A model generated the notes under the pieces. It was given only the letters and a program-made list of their open reading frames with translations. It was not told where the DNA came from and searched no databases. A stretch of 28,460 bases of DNA from a virus, in the IMG/VR virus record IMGVR_UViG_3300008266_000354, positions 1 through 28,460 of that record; one strand, given 5' to 3'. Position numbers and translations under genes: made by a program. Of the stretch, positions 1-28,460 are shown piece by piece. How positions within the stretch are numbered: position 1 is the stretch's first letter; the number at the start of each line of letters is the position of its first letter.

Positions 1-12
1 GTGCGTGGCCCA
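1..12. repeat. 12-bp terminal direct repeat, left copy (candidate filled-in cos end)
   Basis: GTGCGTGGCCCA opens the window and is repeated exactly as its last 12 bases. A 12-base match at both tips is not expected by chance, and it is too short for a normal k-mer assembly overlap or a functional packaged terminal repeat. Lambda-type phages have 12-nt 5' cohesive ends; end repair before sequencing would copy the overhang at both tips. The right copy lies 122 bases upstream of the Nu1-like small terminase start, matching the lambda cos-Nu1-A order. The sequence CGTGGCCCACG across the junction is a small dyad. Confidence 0.7.
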
Positions 13-609
13 CGAACGCCCTGGGGGTGGGGTAAAAGATTCCTTAGTGACCCTCTTAGGATTAGGATTTTTTTCTATAATATTCCGCGCCCAATCCGCG
101 CAGCGATCGCCTGGCTTCGGCTGCATCTTTACGCGAGAGAGAATGCCCGGCGCTACCTTGCTTGCCCGTAGTAGCATCTTCTTAGCGCGAATGCTTACCG
201 CTTGCTTAGTCAGTTTCATTCGGCGGGCTAGTTCGGTTTGCTGCGGCGCATCGGGTAGGCCCAGGACAATCCTAATAAGATCGAAATGATTAACAACGGC
301 CCGATCATCCGATGCGCTTAACATAGCCAGGCAATCGCTGATAACTTCCTGCATTCGTTCTAGGCTAACCCAGGTATCGCTTTCGATCTGCGGTTCGGCG
401 CGCCTAGGATCATCGCCGTTCCATTGTTCCGAGTTGTCATAGATCGGGAACGAATGCCTAGGCAGTCCCATTTCGGAATACGGGCCGGCGTTGCGCTTAC
501 GATACTTAGCCTGTTCCCGTTTGCTCAGGCCGGCGAACCAGCGATCGAACGCCGCTTCTTCGGCGCGGCCTTCGCGCAGCGGCGGCGGGCTAGGTTGCTG
601 GTCAGGCAT
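1..609 (-). CDS. HTH protein crossing the genome ends, N-terminal part (codons 1-203)
   Basis: The ATG at 609 opens a frame with no stop to the window edge. It continues in frame from 28448 to a TGA at 28323, giving about 244 residues once the duplicated 12 bases are collapsed. The leader ends AACCCT-ATG, as in many genes here. Residues about 107-150 look like a helix-turn-helix of the sigma-region-4/MarR kind, with TELARRMKLTKQAVSIRAKK as the core; an acidic patch near 65-78 and a basic, proline-rich C-terminus flank it. The last codons of this part (W-A-T-H) are the cos sequence itself. It is the last gene of the early run and overlaps the small terminase start, so a late-gene regulator or a DNA-end binding role is plausible. 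This is inference; no family is recognised. Confidence 0.75.
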   Translation of the reverse strand, partial: MPDQQPSPPPLREGRAEEAAFDRWFAGLSKREQAKYRKRNAGPYSEMGLPRHSFPIYDNSEQWNGDDPRRAEPQIESDTWVSLERMQEVISDCLAMLSASDDRAVVNHFDLIRIVLGLPDAPQQTELARRMKLTKQAVSIRAKKMLLRASKVAPGILSRVKMQPKPGDRCADWARNIIEKNPNPKRVTKESFTPPPGRSWATH

Positions 610-21647: not shown

Positions 21648-22481
21648 TTAAACCCTGCGCTTCGCGGCCTGCGGCTGCGCGGCAGCCTGGGGAACGCCGG
21701 CTTCAAGGGAAGCCAGCAAGGCCTTAAGGGTCGGCGCGCTGCCGGTAGCAAGGCCTTTAGCGATCGCGACTTTGCCCTGCATCGATTGGCCCTGCATATC
21801 CTCATCTTTAACCAGGCTGCGCTTAAGGCGAACGGCAGCCTTAAAATCGGCGGCGATCGCGTTGACTTCGGCCTGTAGGTAGCCGGCCTGTTCTTCGGTC
21901 AGGGACAGCCCAGGGATTCCCATCCCCTTAAGCGGGCCGCTGCTGATCACAACGGGCTTGATGCCGGCGGCTTCGGCGGCTGCGCTTTGATCCATATAAG
22001 CGAGATAGATCCCGATTGAACCTACGGAAGCGCTACCCGATACCAGAAGCCGGTCGCTAGCCGAGGCGATCCAATAGGCCGCGCTGTTCATAGAACCAGA
22101 AGAATAGGCGATCGTTTCAATTCCCAGGCCGCGAATCTTATCGGCTAGTTCTTCGACCCCTTCGGTCGTGCCGCCGTCAGAATTGATATCGAAAAGAATC
22201 CGCGCAGGATTCGCGGCAACGGCTTCGTCAATCCAATCGTTAACCTGGTCAACATCGGTAGCGCCTAGGCGTTCGATAGGGGAAAGGCTGCGCCCGATCA
22301 TCCCGACAATCGGAATGACATAGGTAGAACCGACCTGGTAAGGCTTGGGCGAAGGGCCGAAGAACTGCGCCAGGATATCCGTAAGCCCGTGTTTCTTTAC
22401 GGCTTCAATATGGCTTTCCGCGATAGAGTAATCTACCAGGAACGGGCGGCCTGAATTAATCGCTTTGATAAGGGAACGCAT
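21648..22481 (-). CDS. S49-family prohead protease (lambda gpC-like), 277 aa
   Basis: The ClpP/SppA fold is clear: I-N-S-D-G-G at 100-104, nucleophile Ser133 in S-M-N-S-A-A-Y-W, and general-base Lys185 in S-G-P-L-K-G. It would cleave scaffold and portal or capsid parts during prohead maturation. I take the ATG at 22481 (leader CTAACTTT), four bases after the portal stop; the open frame up to 22775 is a shadow of the portal gene. There is no long C-terminal scaffold extension, consistent with a separate scaffold gene. Confidence 0.85.
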   Translation of the reverse strand: MRSLIKAINSGRPFLVDYSIAESHIEAVKKHGLTDILAQFFGPSPKPYQVGSTYVIPIVGMIGRSLSPIERLGATDVDQVNDWIDEAVAANPARILFDINSDGGTTEGVEELADKIRGLGIETIAYSSGSMNSAAYWIASASDRLLVSGSASVGSIGIYLAYMDQSAAAEAAGIKPVVISSGPLKGMGIPGLSLTEEQAGYLQAEVNAIAADFKAAVRLKRSLVKDEDMQGQSMQGKVAIAKGLATGSAPTLKALLASLEAGVPQAAAQPQAAKRRV

Positions 22482-22485
22482 AAAG

Positions 22486-23973
22486 TTAGGCGGCGGGCTG
22501 ATCGGTAGGCTGCGAAGGATCGATTCCTTCCATCGCGACTTCGGCGGCGGTCGGCTTGCCTTCGCCTTCCTGCAGCCAATTAAAGCCGGGCTTATATAGC
22601 GTCCAGGTCGGGATTCCTTCGGCCTTCGCCAATTCAAAGATAAACTTAAAATCTTTCGCGCGCTTAACCATTTCGCTGCGCATATCCAGGCCGCGCTGCG
22701 CGTAGAGTTCGGACATAGACAAAAGGCCGAGTTCGACATCGGCGCGATCGTTCGCGGCTTCGCGGCCCGCGTCAACAGTCAGGCGCTTGGGAGTAGTCCA
22801 AGAAACATTAGCCCAATCTCCTTCGGGAACTTCGCCCTGGGAAACGGCCCACCCCATACAGAAGCCCCAAACCTTTTGGCATAGTTTATCGATCGCTACC
22901 GATTGCCAGCGGCTAAATACCCGGTCGGCCTTCGCGGTAATCAACCGAACGCCGCTGCCCGAAATCGCGGAGGGATCGCCGACAAACTCATAAGGCAAAG
23001 TTCCGCGCAGAATATCGGCCTGGACAGATTTAAGGAATCCGGCGAACACCGGCGAAGGGCGGTTTGATGCCAGCGAACTTAGGCTTTCGCCGGGTTCTAA
23101 AGCCAGCAGTTTGCCGCCCATCCTGGACGCGACAGATTCAAGGTTCGCGCTGCCGCTGCCTTCTAGTTCGGCCTTCATATCCTGAGGAATGAATCCGCCG
23201 TTGCGGTGCAGGACGCGCGTAACATCGGCATCGTTGCGAACCGCCAGCATCTCCAGGCGCAACAGTTCATCTTCGGTTTGGATATCGTTCCAGGAATGCT
23301 GCAGGATCGGAAGCCCGCGCGAACCGCTGGCCCAATCCATTTCGGCGATATGGCAGACAGAAGCGGCAGGATAGAACGCGCTGCTGTTATCGCCCTGAAT
23401 GATATTATATCCGACAAGCCGGCCCTTGCTATCGAACTGCACCCCGTCAGCCATACCGGCAGGAACGGGCTTGCCGATCGGATTGCCCACGCGGTGAGCC
23501 TCTACGACCTGCAGGCGCGGGCGGCCTTCATCGATTGCCAGGATAACGAAACAATCCCCATCGCGGAGCGCTGCCCTTAGGGTGATTCGCTGAATATCGT
23601 AGAACGAAAAGCGCCCGCATACGGAGGCTTCGGCAGCCCAGGCTTTGAACCAGGCTTCATAGGCCGCGCCTACATCGGCTTCGGCTGCGCCGCTTTGCGG
23701 CGTGATTCCGTCCCCGATACAGTAAAGCGTATAGTCGTTGAACACCTGGCGCACCAGGCCGAAGTTCCTTTCGCCGTAGCGAATCCGCTTAATCATTTCC
23801 AAGCGATCGCTTGGCTGGTAATCAACGGAGAAATCGGCGGCCTGCCCGTAGATCGTGGCGCGGTTGGAACTGAATCCAACCGAACTGAACGATTGGCTGC
23901 CGGCAGCCTGCGGCTTAAGCGGCTGCTGGGCAGCGGCAGGCTTCAGGTTTTTCGCTACGGATTTCTTAGGCAT
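22486..23973 (-). CDS. portal protein, lambda gpB family, 495 aa
   Basis: The sequence has the lambda-type portal pattern: R-Y-G-E-R-N-F-G-L-V-R near 65-75, a middle section with R-A-A-L-R-D-G-D-C-F-V-I and P-A-A-S-V-C-H-I-A-E-M-D, and a D-I-L-R-G-T-L-P-Y-E-F-V-G-D-P-S-A region near 330-350. The dodecamer forms the DNA channel and docks terminase. The order large terminase, gpW-like, portal, protease copies lambda. The leader has AACTTT-ATG. The proline/alanine-rich N-terminus is likely disordered. Confidence 0.88.
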   Translation of the reverse strand: MPKKSVAKNLKPAAAQQPLKPQAAGSQSFSSVGFSSNRATIYGQAADFSVDYQPSDRLEMIKRIRYGERNFGLVRQVFNDYTLYCIGDGITPQSGAAEADVGAAYEAWFKAWAAEASVCGRFSFYDIQRITLRAALRDGDCFVILAIDEGRPRLQVVEAHRVGNPIGKPVPAGMADGVQFDSKGRLVGYNIIQGDNSSAFYPAASVCHIAEMDWASGSRGLPILQHSWNDIQTEDELLRLEMLAVRNDADVTRVLHRNGGFIPQDMKAELEGSGSANLESVASRMGGKLLALEPGESLSSLASNRPSPVFAGFLKSVQADILRGTLPYEFVGDPSAISGSGVRLITAKADRVFSRWQSVAIDKLCQKVWGFCMGWAVSQGEVPEGDWANVSWTTPKRLTVDAGREAANDRADVELGLLSMSELYAQRGLDMRSEMVKRAKDFKFIFELAKAEGIPTWTLYKPGFNWLQEGEGKPTAAEVAMEGIDPSQPTDQPAA

Positions 23974-24350: not shown

Positions 24351-26195
24351 TCAACTGTTCCCATTGTCAACGGCAGGCTGCGCCGCGATCGCGTCCGGCG
24401 TTTCGGTTGCTTCGCGTCCGATCACTCCCCAGCGAACCGCCAGGACAAGCCCCATAAGTGCGCAGTCGAAGGCGTGATTCCCGATCTGTCGGTTTGATTC
24501 GGGAAGAATCCAGATAGGCTTACCGCTGCGGCTGTCGGTGATCCTTACTTCGCTGGTTAACTGTTTTACATATTCTTCGGAAACATCGCGGGCGTATGTA
24601 TGCAGCCGGCGGTTGCGCAGGCCCGCCAGGAAATCCTTAGATGCAAGGTTTGAATAAACGATGAGTTCCGCGCGCTCCCTCAGGCCAGGGACAATAATCC
24701 TTTGCTTATCGGAATAGAATCTGCGGGTAGTTTTACCCTGACCATCGGCAACCGCGAAATCATTCTGGCCCGAACCGCGTAGCGCCTTCCATCCGCGTTT
24801 AGCCGTTTGCCCATATACCTCTTGCGTATTATCGCCGCTATCGACTCCGACCAGGGCGCGCGAAACCTGATGCGCCTTTGCCAGATCGTCTAGGCCGTTC
24901 CAGGTTTCAATCCGACCGAACCAGCGTAGCCGGCTGCTGCCGTTCCTGGCCCAACTGCGAACCTCTGCCCAGAAGTAGCCGCGCTGACAATCGATAGCCA
25001 GCGTTCGGAACGGAACGGAATGTTCAGGGATTCCCAGGCTGCTATCGGTGATCTTCGCGGTGGGCGTAATCCAGGCTTCATTCTGCCAAGTATCAGCCAG
25101 GCCATAATCGCCGGCTTCGACTAGCGCCGCCATCGTGCCGCCTTCCTCCGACCAGGGCTGCGCGAGTCGCTTCTGTTTCCATATGCGCCTAGGTTCTTCA
25201 TCGCCGTAGGCATCGAACGCTTCTTTCGCTTTTAGCATCTTTGCGCCCTCCTTTCCGAACGAAGAATTAATAAGGCAGTTCCAATGCAGCCCGACAGTTC
25301 CCCAGGTTGCGCCCTGGTTCGTAGCCTTGAAACCAGCGCCGCGCTTAGGATCGTTCGCTTCGGCCCGAACGCCTGGGCTGTCCTTAAGCCGAACGCGGCA
25401 GGCGCAGCATTCGTAAGTCGTGCCGGCTTCTACCTTATTCAAATCCCATATCCCATTTACCTTAGCGTCCTCTGGATAACGAACGAACTCCCAGCGATAG
25501 GGTTGCAAATGCCCGCAGGCCGGGCAGGCCATATGCCACTCCCTTTGATCTGATGCCTGGTATAGCGCGCTAAACTCATCGCCGGTTCTGCCGCCCTGGC
25601 CCATATAGATTGCGCGGCCTAGCCAACTGAAAGCCTGCAGGCGCGCAGCCGCTTCTGCCAAGTGACCGCGCGGCGCTAGCCAGGCTTCATCGACTATAAC
25701 AGTTCGCAGCGAAAGGCGCTGTAAGTTGTTCTCATTCCATATGCCGCGACAGTAAACAGTTACCCCGTTCTTAAAGTCAGCGGTCGTAGATTTATCGTTG
25801 TCCCCATCGGATAGCAAAGCCTGAACCGGCGGGCATTGTTTCCAAAGCGGGCGAACATAGCGAAGAAAGAAATCCTTAGCCTCAGGATCGTTAGCCTGTA
25901 GGGTCATCATAGGCCCAGGCGCGTTGACGATCTGCCAGGCCATATAGACGCGCTGCAGCAGGGATTTGCCCGACTGAGTAGCCGCCAGAATTACGGCGGT
26001 CTTAGTCTCAGGATCGCAAAGGATTCTTAAGGCTTCCGCCAGCCAGGGCGTTCGGGCTAGGGACAGCCGCCCGCGAACCGGCGAATCGGGAACTTCCAAT
26101 ATATTACCTTCGGCCCATTCTACGGGATCGCCGGAATAGTTCGGCCTAACGACCGCCTGCGCGGCAGCCAGAATAGCAGCCTGCTGTTCGGTCAT
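24351..26195 (-). CDS. terminase large subunit, lambda gpA family, 614 aa
   Basis: Walker A A-T-Q-S-G-K-S at 72-78; Walker B V-I-V-D-E at 166-170. A zinc-finger-like pair C-P-A-C (224-227) and C-C-A-C (263-266) is typical of GpA terminases. Nuclease acids appear in L-A-I-D-C-Q-R (about 403), G-V-D-S-G-D (about 452) and H-A-F-D-C-A-L (about 585). It packages DNA and cuts at cos. Start ATGA overlaps the upstream stop, indicating coupling. GpA-type enzymes make 5' staggered cos cuts, in agreement with the 12-base terminal repeat. Confidence 0.92.
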   Translation of the reverse strand: MTEQQAAILAAAQAVVRPNYSGDPVEWAEGNILEVPDSPVRGRLSLARTPWLAEALRILCDPETKTAVILAATQSGKSLLQRVYMAWQIVNAPGPMMTLQANDPEAKDFFLRYVRPLWKQCPPVQALLSDGDNDKSTTADFKNGVTVYCRGIWNENNLQRLSLRTVIVDEAWLAPRGHLAEAAARLQAFSWLGRAIYMGQGGRTGDEFSALYQASDQREWHMACPACGHLQPYRWEFVRYPEDAKVNGIWDLNKVEAGTTYECCACRVRLKDSPGVRAEANDPKRGAGFKATNQGATWGTVGLHWNCLINSSFGKEGAKMLKAKEAFDAYGDEEPRRIWKQKRLAQPWSEEGGTMAALVEAGDYGLADTWQNEAWITPTAKITDSSLGIPEHSVPFRTLAIDCQRGYFWAEVRSWARNGSSRLRWFGRIETWNGLDDLAKAHQVSRALVGVDSGDNTQEVYGQTAKRGWKALRGSGQNDFAVADGQGKTTRRFYSDKQRIIVPGLRERAELIVYSNLASKDFLAGLRNRRLHTYARDVSEEYVKQLTSEVRITDSRSGKPIWILPESNRQIGNHAFDCALMGLVLAVRWGVIGREATETPDAIAAQPAVDNGNS

Positions 26196-26695
26196 TTGCG
26201 GCGCTGCTTATGCAGCCTGTCCAGGTCGGCCTTGCGGAAATGCTGCGCCGGCTTCGTGCAGCCGATGTTCGCGGCGATGCGGAACATTCGCGGTTTAAGT
26301 TTATGCCGCTGCGCCATTAGATGAACCGCCTGGATTGTCAGGCCGATGCGGTTGGCATAGTCGCGCATTGAAACCCAGCCCTTCGGGATTCGGTCAATGC
26401 CTTCGGCCTGCATCGACTGGCGCGCAGCCAAGGGATCGGTGAACCGCCGCGAAGGCCGGTAGATATAGGCCAGCCCGTGTTTGCCGTTTTCGTGCAGCGT
26501 ATGCATAACCTTGCGCTCCAGATATCCGCGATCGAACAACCGCTTCGCCAGGTTGCTGGTAGAGTTCAGGGTTAGCAGCCGAAAGATTCGCCGCAGTTCG
26601 TGCAGGTCGAACCAGCCTTCGGGCTTCTGATCTCTGCCCGTAAGCGCAGCCAGAAGGATAGTTAGGCCTTTCTTCATTTGCGCTTCGGTTGCCAT
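26192..26695 (-). CDS. two-HTH DNA-binding protein in terminase module, 167 aa
   Basis: Residues about 27-65 look like a winged helix (F-D-L-H-E-L-R-R-I, S-N-L-A-K-R-L-F-D-R-G-Y-L). Residues about 106-135 form an HTH (W-V-S-M-R-D-Y-A-N-R-I-G-L-T-I-Q-A-V-H). The C-terminus is very basic. It is coupled to the large terminase (ATGA) and overlaps the phosphoesterase by 22 bases. It could bind cos as an accessory terminase factor or regulate the module; the Nu1-like gene is the better small terminase. Confidence 0.7.
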   Translation of the reverse strand: MATEAQMKKGLTILLAALTGRDQKPEGWFDLHELRRIFRLLTLNSTSNLAKRLFDRGYLERKVMHTLHENGKHGLAYIYRPSRRFTDPLAARQSMQAEGIDRIPKGWVSMRDYANRIGLTIQAVHLMAQRHKLKPRMFRIAANIGCTKPAQHFRKADLDRLHKQRRK

Positions 26696-27441
26696 AGTTT
26701 GAAATCCGTTTGAAAGAACCAGCGATCGCCGACCTTATGGCATAGCCAGATTTTCCAATCGTTGCCCTGAACCCAGCCGGCAACCCAGCCGCTACCCCAG
26801 CGGCTAGTTCCCAAGCGGGCCGTAGCGTAGCCTGGTTCTTTGTCGCATAGGCAGCCGGCGCTGAAAGCCTGCCCGCCTTTGTCGCGCTGAAGCGCTACGG
26901 ATTCTAAACGATGGATATGCCCGCAGACCATCGCGCCGCCGGCCTGGGCGTAATGCTGGCCCTGCAGCGTTACCGCGTTCAGCCCGTGGGCGTAGCCGTG
27001 AACGAACGCGATCGGCCCTAGCCGGAATACGCCGCGCGAATAGTGGTAGGGAAGTATCTTCTTAGCGCCGGCCTGGCGGGCTTCGCGGTTGATGCGGTCT
27101 TTGATATCCTGGCAGTAGTCGCGGATCAGCGCGCTGGAACTTGAACTGATAAGCCGATCTAACCTGTGTTCGTGATTACCCCATAAATAAACATCGGGTT
27201 TATATGCCCGCAAGAAATCGATGCCCTGGGCCAGATCGTCAGCCAGGCTTTCGCCGCTTTCCGCATCGCCAGAACCGATGCCCTGGCGCAGCGCGCGCAG
27301 GTCGAAGGCATCGCCTAAATGTATTTTGATATCAGGGGAATATTCGGCGCAGTAGGCCAGCAGCGCAGCGATGCTTTCCCCGTCCCCGTGATCCCCGTGA
27401 TTATCGCCGCAGGCAACGAACTTGATTAGTTTCTGGCTCAT
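26674..27441 (-). CDS. calcineurin-like metallophosphoesterase, 255 aa
   Basis: All five motifs are present: D-N-H (13-15), G-D-A-F-D (43-47), G-N-H-E (88-91), H148 in V-H-G-Y, and G-H-I-H (174-177), which bind two metals. Members remove phosphate from proteins or cleave nucleic acids or cyclic nucleotides. It is coupled (ATGA) to the coiled-coil gene upstream and sits inside the terminase module. A function in end-processing or in countering a nucleotide-signal defence is imaginable; the sequence shows only the fold. Confidence 0.85.
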   Translation of the reverse strand: MSQKLIKFVACGDNHGDHGDGESIAALLAYCAEYSPDIKIHLGDAFDLRALRQGIGSGDAESGESLADDLAQGIDFLRAYKPDVYLWGNHEHRLDRLISSSSSALIRDYCQDIKDRINREARQAGAKKILPYHYSRGVFRLGPIAFVHGYAHGLNAVTLQGQHYAQAGGAMVCGHIHRLESVALQRDKGGQAFSAGCLCDKEPGYATARLGTSRWGSGWVAGWVQGNDWKIWLCHKVGDRWFFQTDFKLWQPKRK

Positions 27442-27749
27442 AGTTTCTTCGCGGCTTCCCAGGCTAAAACTTCAGGGTGTTCGTTACTCATATCCATTAG
27501 GTTGTTAAGATCGTTGACCAGGGTAACTAGATTATCGCCGGCATCGCGAAGCCGTTTGTTCTCTGCCTTTAGTTTCTTAATATGATCCTTCGCAAGTTCA
27601 GCGGCGTAGAGGTAGGCGGTCAGCGGATCGGGCTGCTGCTTAAGTTCCGCGACCTGCGCCTGCAGTTCCGCAATCTCTTTGTTACAAGCGGCAACCGCCT
27701 GATCGGCGATATGCAGCGGGATCGTTCGTTGTTTGTTTAGTTCGCTCAT
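27438..27749 (-). CDS. coiled-coil protein, 103 aa
   Basis: A nearly continuous coiled coil (A-A-C-N-K-E-I-A-E-L-Q-A-Q-V-A-E-L-K and H-I-K-K-L-K-A-E-N-K-R-L-R) with a shorter C-terminal tail. It lies four bases after the small terminase and overlaps the phosphoesterase (ATGA). The leader is AACTTT-ATG. It might dimerise with either neighbour. No family is recognised. Confidence 0.6.
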   Translation of the reverse strand: MSELNKQRTIPLHIADQAVAACNKEIAELQAQVAELKQQPDPLTAYLYAAELAKDHIKKLKAENKRLRDAGDNLVTLVNDLNNLMDMSNEHPEVLAWEAAKKL

Positions 27750-27753
27750 AAAG

Positions 27754-28326
27754 TTAACGGGCTAGTTCCTCCCTGATCTGCCGCGTCCATTTCTCCAGAA
27801 CCTTGATCGCGGTTTCTGGCCTGTCCCCGTTGCAGGCTTCGGCGCAATCCAGCGGCAACTTATCCAGGCGCGAAACTACCTTCGCAGTCCAATCGGATAT
27901 AATGGATTCGGCTTCGGATAGTTTGATATAGGTTCGGGCTTCCAGGGCGCGCCTGACTTCTTCGGCTTCCAGGGCTATCAGGGTTTTCAGCGATTGGTTA
28001 TAGGCTGTCTGCAGCCGCGCCTGATTGTTATTCCCTTCTTCGATTGCAGCCAGGTAAACATCGCGCGCCCGCTGCACAAGCCGCCGGTGCTGTTCCAGCG
28101 CGCCGCCCAGGCTGTTATCGGTCAGGCCTTCGATATTGTCAGGCCGCGCGGTCGGGATCGGCGCAGGCTTCGTTCGGCCCGCAGCCCGTTCGGCGCGCCA
28201 GGCCTTCGCCGCTTCAATGCTAGCGTTCGGCATTCCCTCTTGCGCTAACTTCGCGACATAGCCTTTAGACAAGTTCAGCGCGGCGGCTAATTGTTTCTGC
28301 GTTACCTTGGTAGGTTGATTGGTCAT
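27754..28326 (-). CDS. terminase small subunit, Nu1-like, 190 aa
   Basis: The N-terminus (V-T-Q-K-Q-L-A-A-A-L-N-L-S-K-G-Y-V-A-K-L, then G-M-P) is the Nu1-type winged HTH that binds cosB. A linker follows, then a long helix (A-L-E-A-E-E-V-R-R-A-L-E-A-R) and the D-W-T-A-K-V-V-S-R-L-D-K-L-P segment found in Nu1/DUF1441-like proteins. It recognises cos and recruits the large subunit. It starts 122 bases from the terminal repeat, a spacing like lambda, and overlaps the HTH gene's stop codon. Confidence 0.8.
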   Translation of the reverse strand: MTNQPTKVTQKQLAAALNLSKGYVAKLAQEGMPNASIEAAKAWRAERAAGRTKPAPIPTARPDNIEGLTDNSLGGALEQHRRLVQRARDVYLAAIEEGNNNQARLQTAYNQSLKTLIALEAEEVRRALEARTYIKLSEAESIISDWTAKVVSRLDKLPLDCAEACNGDRPETAIKVLEKWTRQIREELAR

Positions 28327-28460
28327 AGTTGATAGCGGCCTGATACAATAGTTTTCAACTGAGGCTTAACCTGGATTCGCGCGCCTGGATCGGCAGCCGG
28401 TAGCCTTCCCGGCGGTTTCGGCAAAGCGATTTGCGATTTTTGCCCGTGGTGCGTGGCCCA
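28323..28460 (-). CDS. HTH protein crossing the genome ends, C-terminal part (about 41 residues beyond cos)
   Basis: This is the continuation of the gene starting at 609, reading H-G-Q-K and on through a proline- and lysine-rich tail ending G-R-Y-Q-L before TGA (28325-28323). The TGA overlaps the ATG of the small terminase (28326-28324) as ATGA, the usual signature of translational coupling in tight phage operons. That coupling supports the reality of the frame across the ends. In the linear virion the gene would be cut into two pieces and become whole only after the ends anneal. Confidence 0.7.
   Translation of the reverse strand, partial: WATHHGQKSQIALPKPPGRLPAADPGARIQVKPQLKTIVSGRYQL
28449..28460. 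repeat. 12-bp terminal direct repeat, right copy (candidate cosN)
   Basis: This is the right copy of GTGCGTGGCCCA. The segment between it and the small terminase start (28327-28448) is where a cosB-like terminase binding region would be expected by analogy with lambda, but I could not identify repeated binding sites in it. The segment also encodes the C-terminal end of the HTH protein that starts at 609. Because 12 is a multiple of three, the reading frame stays open whether or not the duplicate is collapsed. Confidence 0.7.

Follow-up and report, generated by a model that had tools for sequence, protein, structure and literature searches.

A predicted DNA-binding protein gene reads through the cos packaging site in a family of lambda-type phages known from metagenomes

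Cos phages and genes split by DNA processing

Cos phages are textbook systems, and cos is normally drawn in a gap between genes. In lambda, late transcription has to cross the joined cos before it gets to the terminase genes. The lambda cos is flanked by annotated genes (nu1 begins at 191, and the final annotated CDS finishes at 47944 of 48502), and no open frame longer than 41 codons crosses the join, in agreement with the original prediction that no lambda gene spans cos. In the phage described here, by contrast, cos is located inside a gene. Its sequence makes up the whole IMG/VR virus record IMGVR_UViG_3300008266_000354 (28,460 bases, hereafter the window). It shares with lambda a GpA-family large terminase (TerL), 12-nt ends, a small terminase (TerS) gene beside cos and late genes that can be reached only via joined cos. 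Dependence of late genes on circularity is therefore not new in itself, since lambda late transcripts also cross the joined cos. HK97 and Sfi21 resemble the window phage in having cos near the terminase genes, and HP1 in having defined cohesive ends. No annotated gene crosses the ends of lambda, HP1, HK97 or Sfi21, a small control of four reference phages in which open frames spanning the join reach 104 codons at most (HK97, unannotated).

P22 packages DNA by the headful mechanism with terminal redundancy. A P22 virion may still hold an intact copy of the interrupted gene, whereas the cos ends of the window phage leave none. The P22 pac site lies within the TerS gene, so that P22-type phages share with the window phage a packaging recognition or cut site inside a coding sequence (PMC9611059). 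In the BPs mycobacteriophages attP is located inside the repressor gene, and the tail of the protein depends on integration (PMC4557955). BPs is the nearest functioning parallel to such a divided gene: in both cases the processing site lies in the gene of a DNA-binding regulator, putative in our phage, whose C-terminus depends on the state of the genome. Integration in BPs replaces a degradation-tagged tail to give a short stable repressor, whereas in the window phage terminase does the cutting and the short form has no stop codon. The site within the helix-turn-helix (HTH) gene of the window is a packaging end and not an attP acted upon by an integrase. Phrase-limited searches of the open-access literature found no precedent for a cos-spanning gene.

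Genome organisation and physical ends

The window is a complete genome of a lambda-type (GpA-terminase) phage with a 12-bp terminal repeat. Nearly all of its long frames are located on the minus strand (Table 1). From 28460 onwards, in gene orientation, they encode TerS, a coiled-coil protein, a metallophosphoesterase, a 167-aa protein and the GpA-family large terminase, followed by portal-like and protease-like frames. The opposite end of the window carries a nucleotide kinase-like protein, a DnaB-type helicase, two small frames and then the HTH gene. The TerS gene begins about 134 nt inside the left end (gene orientation), beside cos, as in lambda-type cos packaging. The large terminase passes the cut-offs of both GpA-family profiles (PF05876, 103.5 bits against 25.6, E 2e-29; PF20454, 44.1 against 22.5, E 2e-11). 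The TerS and TerL genes, adjacent in lambda, are separated here by the coiled-coil, metallophosphoesterase and 167-aa protein genes (26192-27749), the last of these without a known family. In the mechanical frame listing, the protease-like frame (ending at 21648) is taken from an upstream TTG and overlaps the portal-like frame (22486-23973) by about 290 nt; its true start is probably later than this TTG.

No cultured relative was found at the nucleotide level or by the HTH protein, and TerL gave only matches of 20-25%. No prophage relative was confirmed among species genomes, and the phage family is known from metagenomes only. Promoter and terminator scans gave nothing of note above shuffles.

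Table 1. Features of the window relevant to packaging and to the HTH gene.
Feature	Position	Strand	Evidence
cosN (cohesive end), copy at the right end in gene orientation; gene sense TGGGCCACGCAC	1..12		12-bp terminal repeat; 8 contigs end at the exact last base
Conserved cosQ-like element, GGTCACTAAGGAATCTTTT in the window	34..52	-	Present in all lineages; TAA 33-34 nt before cosN
Predicted helix-turn-helix core, residues 83-160	130..363	-	AlphaFold2 block means of about 72-90 pLDDT; MarR_2/HTH_24/KorA-like matches
HTH gene, 5' part up to the end of the molecule: 203 codons, 4 of them in cos	1..609	-	Open frame; 88-96% identity in seven joined contigs; pN/pS 0.16
Terminase large subunit, GpA (lambda) family	24351..26195	-	PF05876, PF20454; phrog_15, E 1.3e-52
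Terminase small subunit TerS, 190 aa	27754..28326	-	phrog_57, E 3.5e-12
ATGA stop/start overlap of the HTH gene and TerS	28323..28326	-	Identical in all 10 window-clade sequences; found in two further groups
HTH gene, 3' part past cos once the ends are joined: 41 codons plus TGA	28323..28448	-	Same frame; coding signature in the window's clade
Candidate cosB: conserved element GGAAGGCTACCGG, about 50 nt beyond cosN	28397..28409	-	Related GGAA..C.ACC.G in all lineages
cosN (cohesive end), copy at the left end in gene orientation	28449..28460		12-bp terminal repeat; 10 contigs including the window start at the exact first base

The two terminal 12-mers of the window are copies of one sequence (GTGCGTGGCCCA as presented), which is present once in the circle. 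Fifteen IMG/VR contigs including the window share these ends to the base. The 12-mer is present at both ends of three of these contigs (28.5, 30.7 and 31.3 kb): besides the window, these are G001 (30,743 bp), with TGGGCCACGCAC at 1-12 and 30732-30743, and G010 (31,259 bp), a member of the other clade with TGGGTCATCCAC at 1-12 and 31248-31259. Exact ends at the twelfth base of cos were found in L081, L083, L086, L090, L091, L105 and L110, while three further contigs (L076, L082, L095) end a few bases off cos. A scan with the cos core returned 28 stretches with the preceding G and 36 without it, and all eight additional ones are contig ends starting at the first cos base.

Since independent contigs terminate at identical bases, and three of them have the repeat at both ends, we take the contig ends to be physical cos ends. 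IMG/VR classes the record as linear without end repeats, and the ends could be arbitrary products of assembly with a 12-bp repeat arising by chance. The probability of such a chance match is about 1 in 1.7e7. Moreover, two full-length relatives (G015, G017) are circular assemblies with an internal cos and end overlaps of 123 and 127 nt, so assembler overlaps in this family are 123-127 nt long and not 12. Together with the ends common to independent contigs, these overlaps rule out an artefact for practical purposes, and we regard it as extremely improbable. Circularly permuted, terminally redundant ends typical of headful (pac) packaging were not observed either: the ends are fixed and identical, and only 12 bp are repeated in whole-length virion-type contigs. 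Retention of the 12-mer at both ends would fit fill-in of 12-nt overhangs, presumably 5', during library preparation. The original prediction had named ends located elsewhere as the result that would speak against it, and on this point it stands.

The HTH gene across joined ends

The HTH frame is open from ATG 609 to base 1 and continues in the same frame from 28460 to the TGA at 28323-28325. When the ends are joined via a single cos copy, the frame passes from base 1 directly to 28448; it spans the whole cos region and comprises 244 codons. As 12 is divisible by 3, readings with one and with two cos copies are both in frame. The original prediction gave the coordinates correctly (ATG 609, resumption at 28460, TGA 28323), but a restart at 28460 counts the four cos codons twice, giving 248 residues instead of the true 244. 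It was also right that cos encodes four residues (the 12-mer reads WATH) and that the HTH stop codon overlaps the TerS start (TGA 28323-28325 and ATG 28324-28326 in ATGA). The pN/pS value given in Table 1 for the 5' part refers to the segment upstream of the linker, from -597 to -120 relative to cos.

Since the gene runs through the whole packaging site, terminase splits it in every virion. Judging from the sequence, it follows directly that no virion carries an intact HTH gene and that the full-length protein can be made only from joined ends, be it a circle or a concatemer. Both statements had been made in the original prediction for the case that the ends are cos ends, and the real cos ends, the predicted DNA-binding gene and the coding signal past cos in the window's clade bear them out. 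By the same anatomy, TerS would need joined ends as well, to the extent that it is translated by coupling to the HTH gene.

The HTH product is predicted to be a DNA-binding protein. Profile matches are weak and mixed: MarR_2 was matched by all 20 members of the family, KorA (TrfB; KORA) by nine and Sigma70_r4 by one, with additional matches to HTH_24, and the MarR_2 score of the window protein (21.2 bits against a cut-off of 27) lies below the curated threshold. Fold neighbours are also weak and include sigma region 4 and homeodomain-like HTH proteins (Z about 4 or less, best PDB Z 4.1); eight uncharacterised proteins of uncultured phages are better fold matches than the PDB neighbours. In the AlphaFold2 model built with 20 homologues, residues 163-244, including the cos codons, have pLDDT below 50. 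According to this model, the cos cut would leave the DNA-binding core whole, and the tail encoded by cos belongs to a region predicted to be disordered.

The HTH gene reads through the joined cos in at least 23 contigs, seven from the window's clade and 16 from clade 2. The former (L002-L008) are independent, 88-96% identical to the window and present in the joined form, with one cos copy inside an unbroken frame of 243-244 codons. In clade 2, where the HTH protein is 43-57% identical, all 16 crossing contigs checked read through cos in another frame, encode GAST and not WATH, and have the stop codon at +61 to +103. In one sister pair only (L019/L020, the same as L111/L104) the HTH gene stops 46-47 nt before cos. 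The original prediction had listed homologues with a non-crossing frame as counter-evidence, and this pair is such a case; crossing was retained in all other lineages seen, at 43-57% identity, so it is conserved, though not universal. A short GTG-started frame (VAKEIYL..AWFIHHRQKT..; L019:1433-1580, L020:5244-5382) crosses cos in the sister pair in the window-clade frame; it may represent a relic, or a tail that has become separate.

The coding signal past cos was evaluated in the window's clade on the 40 codons that separate cos from the stop, with the alignment columns permuted 2000 times. Pairwise differences are concentrated at third positions (454 against 281 and 229), and pN/pS is 0.48-0.49 in the gene frame against 0.9-1.1 in the other two. 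Permuted alignments gave a mean of 1.02, and three of 2000 were as low as observed. In the distal 20 codons pN/pS is 0.35, a value reached by none of the 2000 permutations. The first 20 codons (60 nt) past cos carry no codon signal by themselves, which is expected because DNA sites are also constrained there. The real tail has neither stops nor indels, while only 11 of 2000 permuted alignments were free of stops. Clade 2 gives a weaker signal (55/1000 and 69/1000). These codon patterns argue that the part past cos is coding in the window's clade, where they rule out a chance open frame. An independent small ORF starting after cos is also unlikely: L021 has no ATG, GTG or TTG past cos in the gene frame, and L027 has only an ATG near the end. 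Since L021 lacks a usual start there, translation must come across cos.

Two conserved elements flank cosN. The cosQ-like element (consensus across lineages GGTNNCTAAGAAATCTATT, with a TAA-to-cosN spacing of 33 or 34 nt) occupies what we take to be the place of cosQ in lambda. It is a candidate cosQ by position, although the lambda sequence differs. The element on the other side, GGAAGGC.ACC.G, resembles a part of cosN. It is a candidate cosB, a putative TerS-binding site, and the lambda sequence differs here as well. On a tree of HTH cores, the cosQ-like element has shifted phase within the HTH gene at least two to three times, yet the frame at cosN stays constant throughout clade 2: the difference between the 33- and 34-nt spacers offsets every phase change. 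The two sequences of the early-stopping sister pair differ from each other by 1 nt in this stretch (96 against 97), so that here the frame is not preserved. Between cosQ and cosN the sequence is C-rich and has hardly any stops, with two of three frames open, so the different crossing frames of the two clades were dropped as proof of selection. Because the stretch is stop-poor, only the compensation of single-base indels in clade 2 and the codon signal carry weight.

Three of four groups end the HTH gene in an ATGA overlap with TerS. The overlap is found at three different cosN-to-stop distances: 135 nt in the window's clade, 103 nt in group 2b and 76 nt in group 2c. The simplest reading is that it provides translational coupling from the HTH gene to TerS, which would have been kept through three lengths of the cos-TerS region. 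Such coupling is not universal, since in group 2a and its neighbours the HTH stop lies at least 22 nt before TerS. Inspection by eye revealed no clear Shine-Dalgarno sequence before TerS in the ATGA overlaps. Likewise, in the window's clade no Shine-Dalgarno-like sequence precedes the HTH start (609) or the TerS start (28326); the host may use weak or leaderless initiation.

Possible reasons for the open frame

The cosQ-like element, cosN and the region between cosN and TerS all lie within the last gene before cos. Injected linear DNA could yield a message of 203 codons at most; it would lack a stop codon and would presumably be cleared by ribosome rescue (trans-translation). Once the cohesive ends have annealed and been ligated, a single transcript could run from the replication genes through the HTH gene and cos into TerS. 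The full-length HTH protein would be made from such joined DNA, and ribosomes finishing it would re-initiate on TerS. The packaging signal would thus be overprinted on the disordered tail of a protein needed only after circularisation.

Translational coupling to TerS is the likeliest reason for a frame kept open through cos, and we consider it probable that coupling together with economical overprinting is the main one. Counting against this are the gap before TerS in clade 2a and its neighbours, the weak codon signal of clade 2, the missing signal in the first 60 nt past cos of the window's clade, and the ease with which a frame crosses once it has reached the stop-poor cosQ-cosN stretch. This ease would also suit a neutral origin, in which an HTH gene that once ended before cos lost its stop codon and now reads through the site, the part past cos being unselected. 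The near absence of stops in two of three frames, the crossing of the two clades in different frames, the disorder of the tail and the weak clade-2 signal are all compatible with such a run-on. It does not account for the coding signature of the window's clade (3/2000, and 0/2000 in the distal half), with no stops or indels, for the ATGA overlap retained at three different distances, or for a clade-2 frame that is compensated at cosN, the compensation being lost exactly where the gene stops early. We therefore hold a neutral run-on to be rather unlikely.

Coupling with overprinting must also be weighed against selection for the split itself, with the full-length HTH protein acting as a regulator, e.g., of late or terminase genes, timed by end joining. 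The conservation of the split across lineages with 43-57% identity, the position of the gene between the replication genes and the terminase, the predicted DNA-binding nature of the product (MarR/KorA/sigma region 4-like) and the indels that compensate each other to keep the frame at cosN would all suit such a switch, and the attP-split repressor of mycobacteriophage BPs is an example of a topology-dependent one (PMC4557955). However, the whole HTH core precedes cos, and the cut removes only a fast-evolving disordered tail, wholly different between the clades (WATH and GAST frames); moreover, one sister pair manages without crossing. A selected circularity switch, the kind of sensor proposed in the original prediction, is thus possible but doubtful. 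The same doubt applies to the idea that the packaging site was placed deliberately inside a TerS-coupled regulator gene, as an AND-gate reading circularity before the packaging genes are switched on, which would restrict production of both TerS and the full-length regulator to joined DNA. The truncated 203-residue form could also function early, from linear DNA, with the full-length one taking over later. It would retain the whole HTH core, but its message has no stop codon and its release needs ribosome rescue, and nothing in the sequence favours a separate early role. Ribosome rescue usually tags the product for degradation. We find such a two-form protein very improbable.

Overall, overprinting of cos on a TerS-coupled tail would account for the data at least as well as a selected circularity sensor, and with either the dependence on joined ends is built in. 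A conserved family with cos inside a translated gene overlapping TerS suggests that one sequence can serve at once as packaging signal, as protein code and for translational coupling. Production of a packaging protein would thereby be tied to the same joined site it will act on, which offers a simple testable route to ask whether phages sense completed circularisation. For annotation, the family serves as a warning that a gene interrupted by the ends of a linear phage record can be real and should be read across the join.
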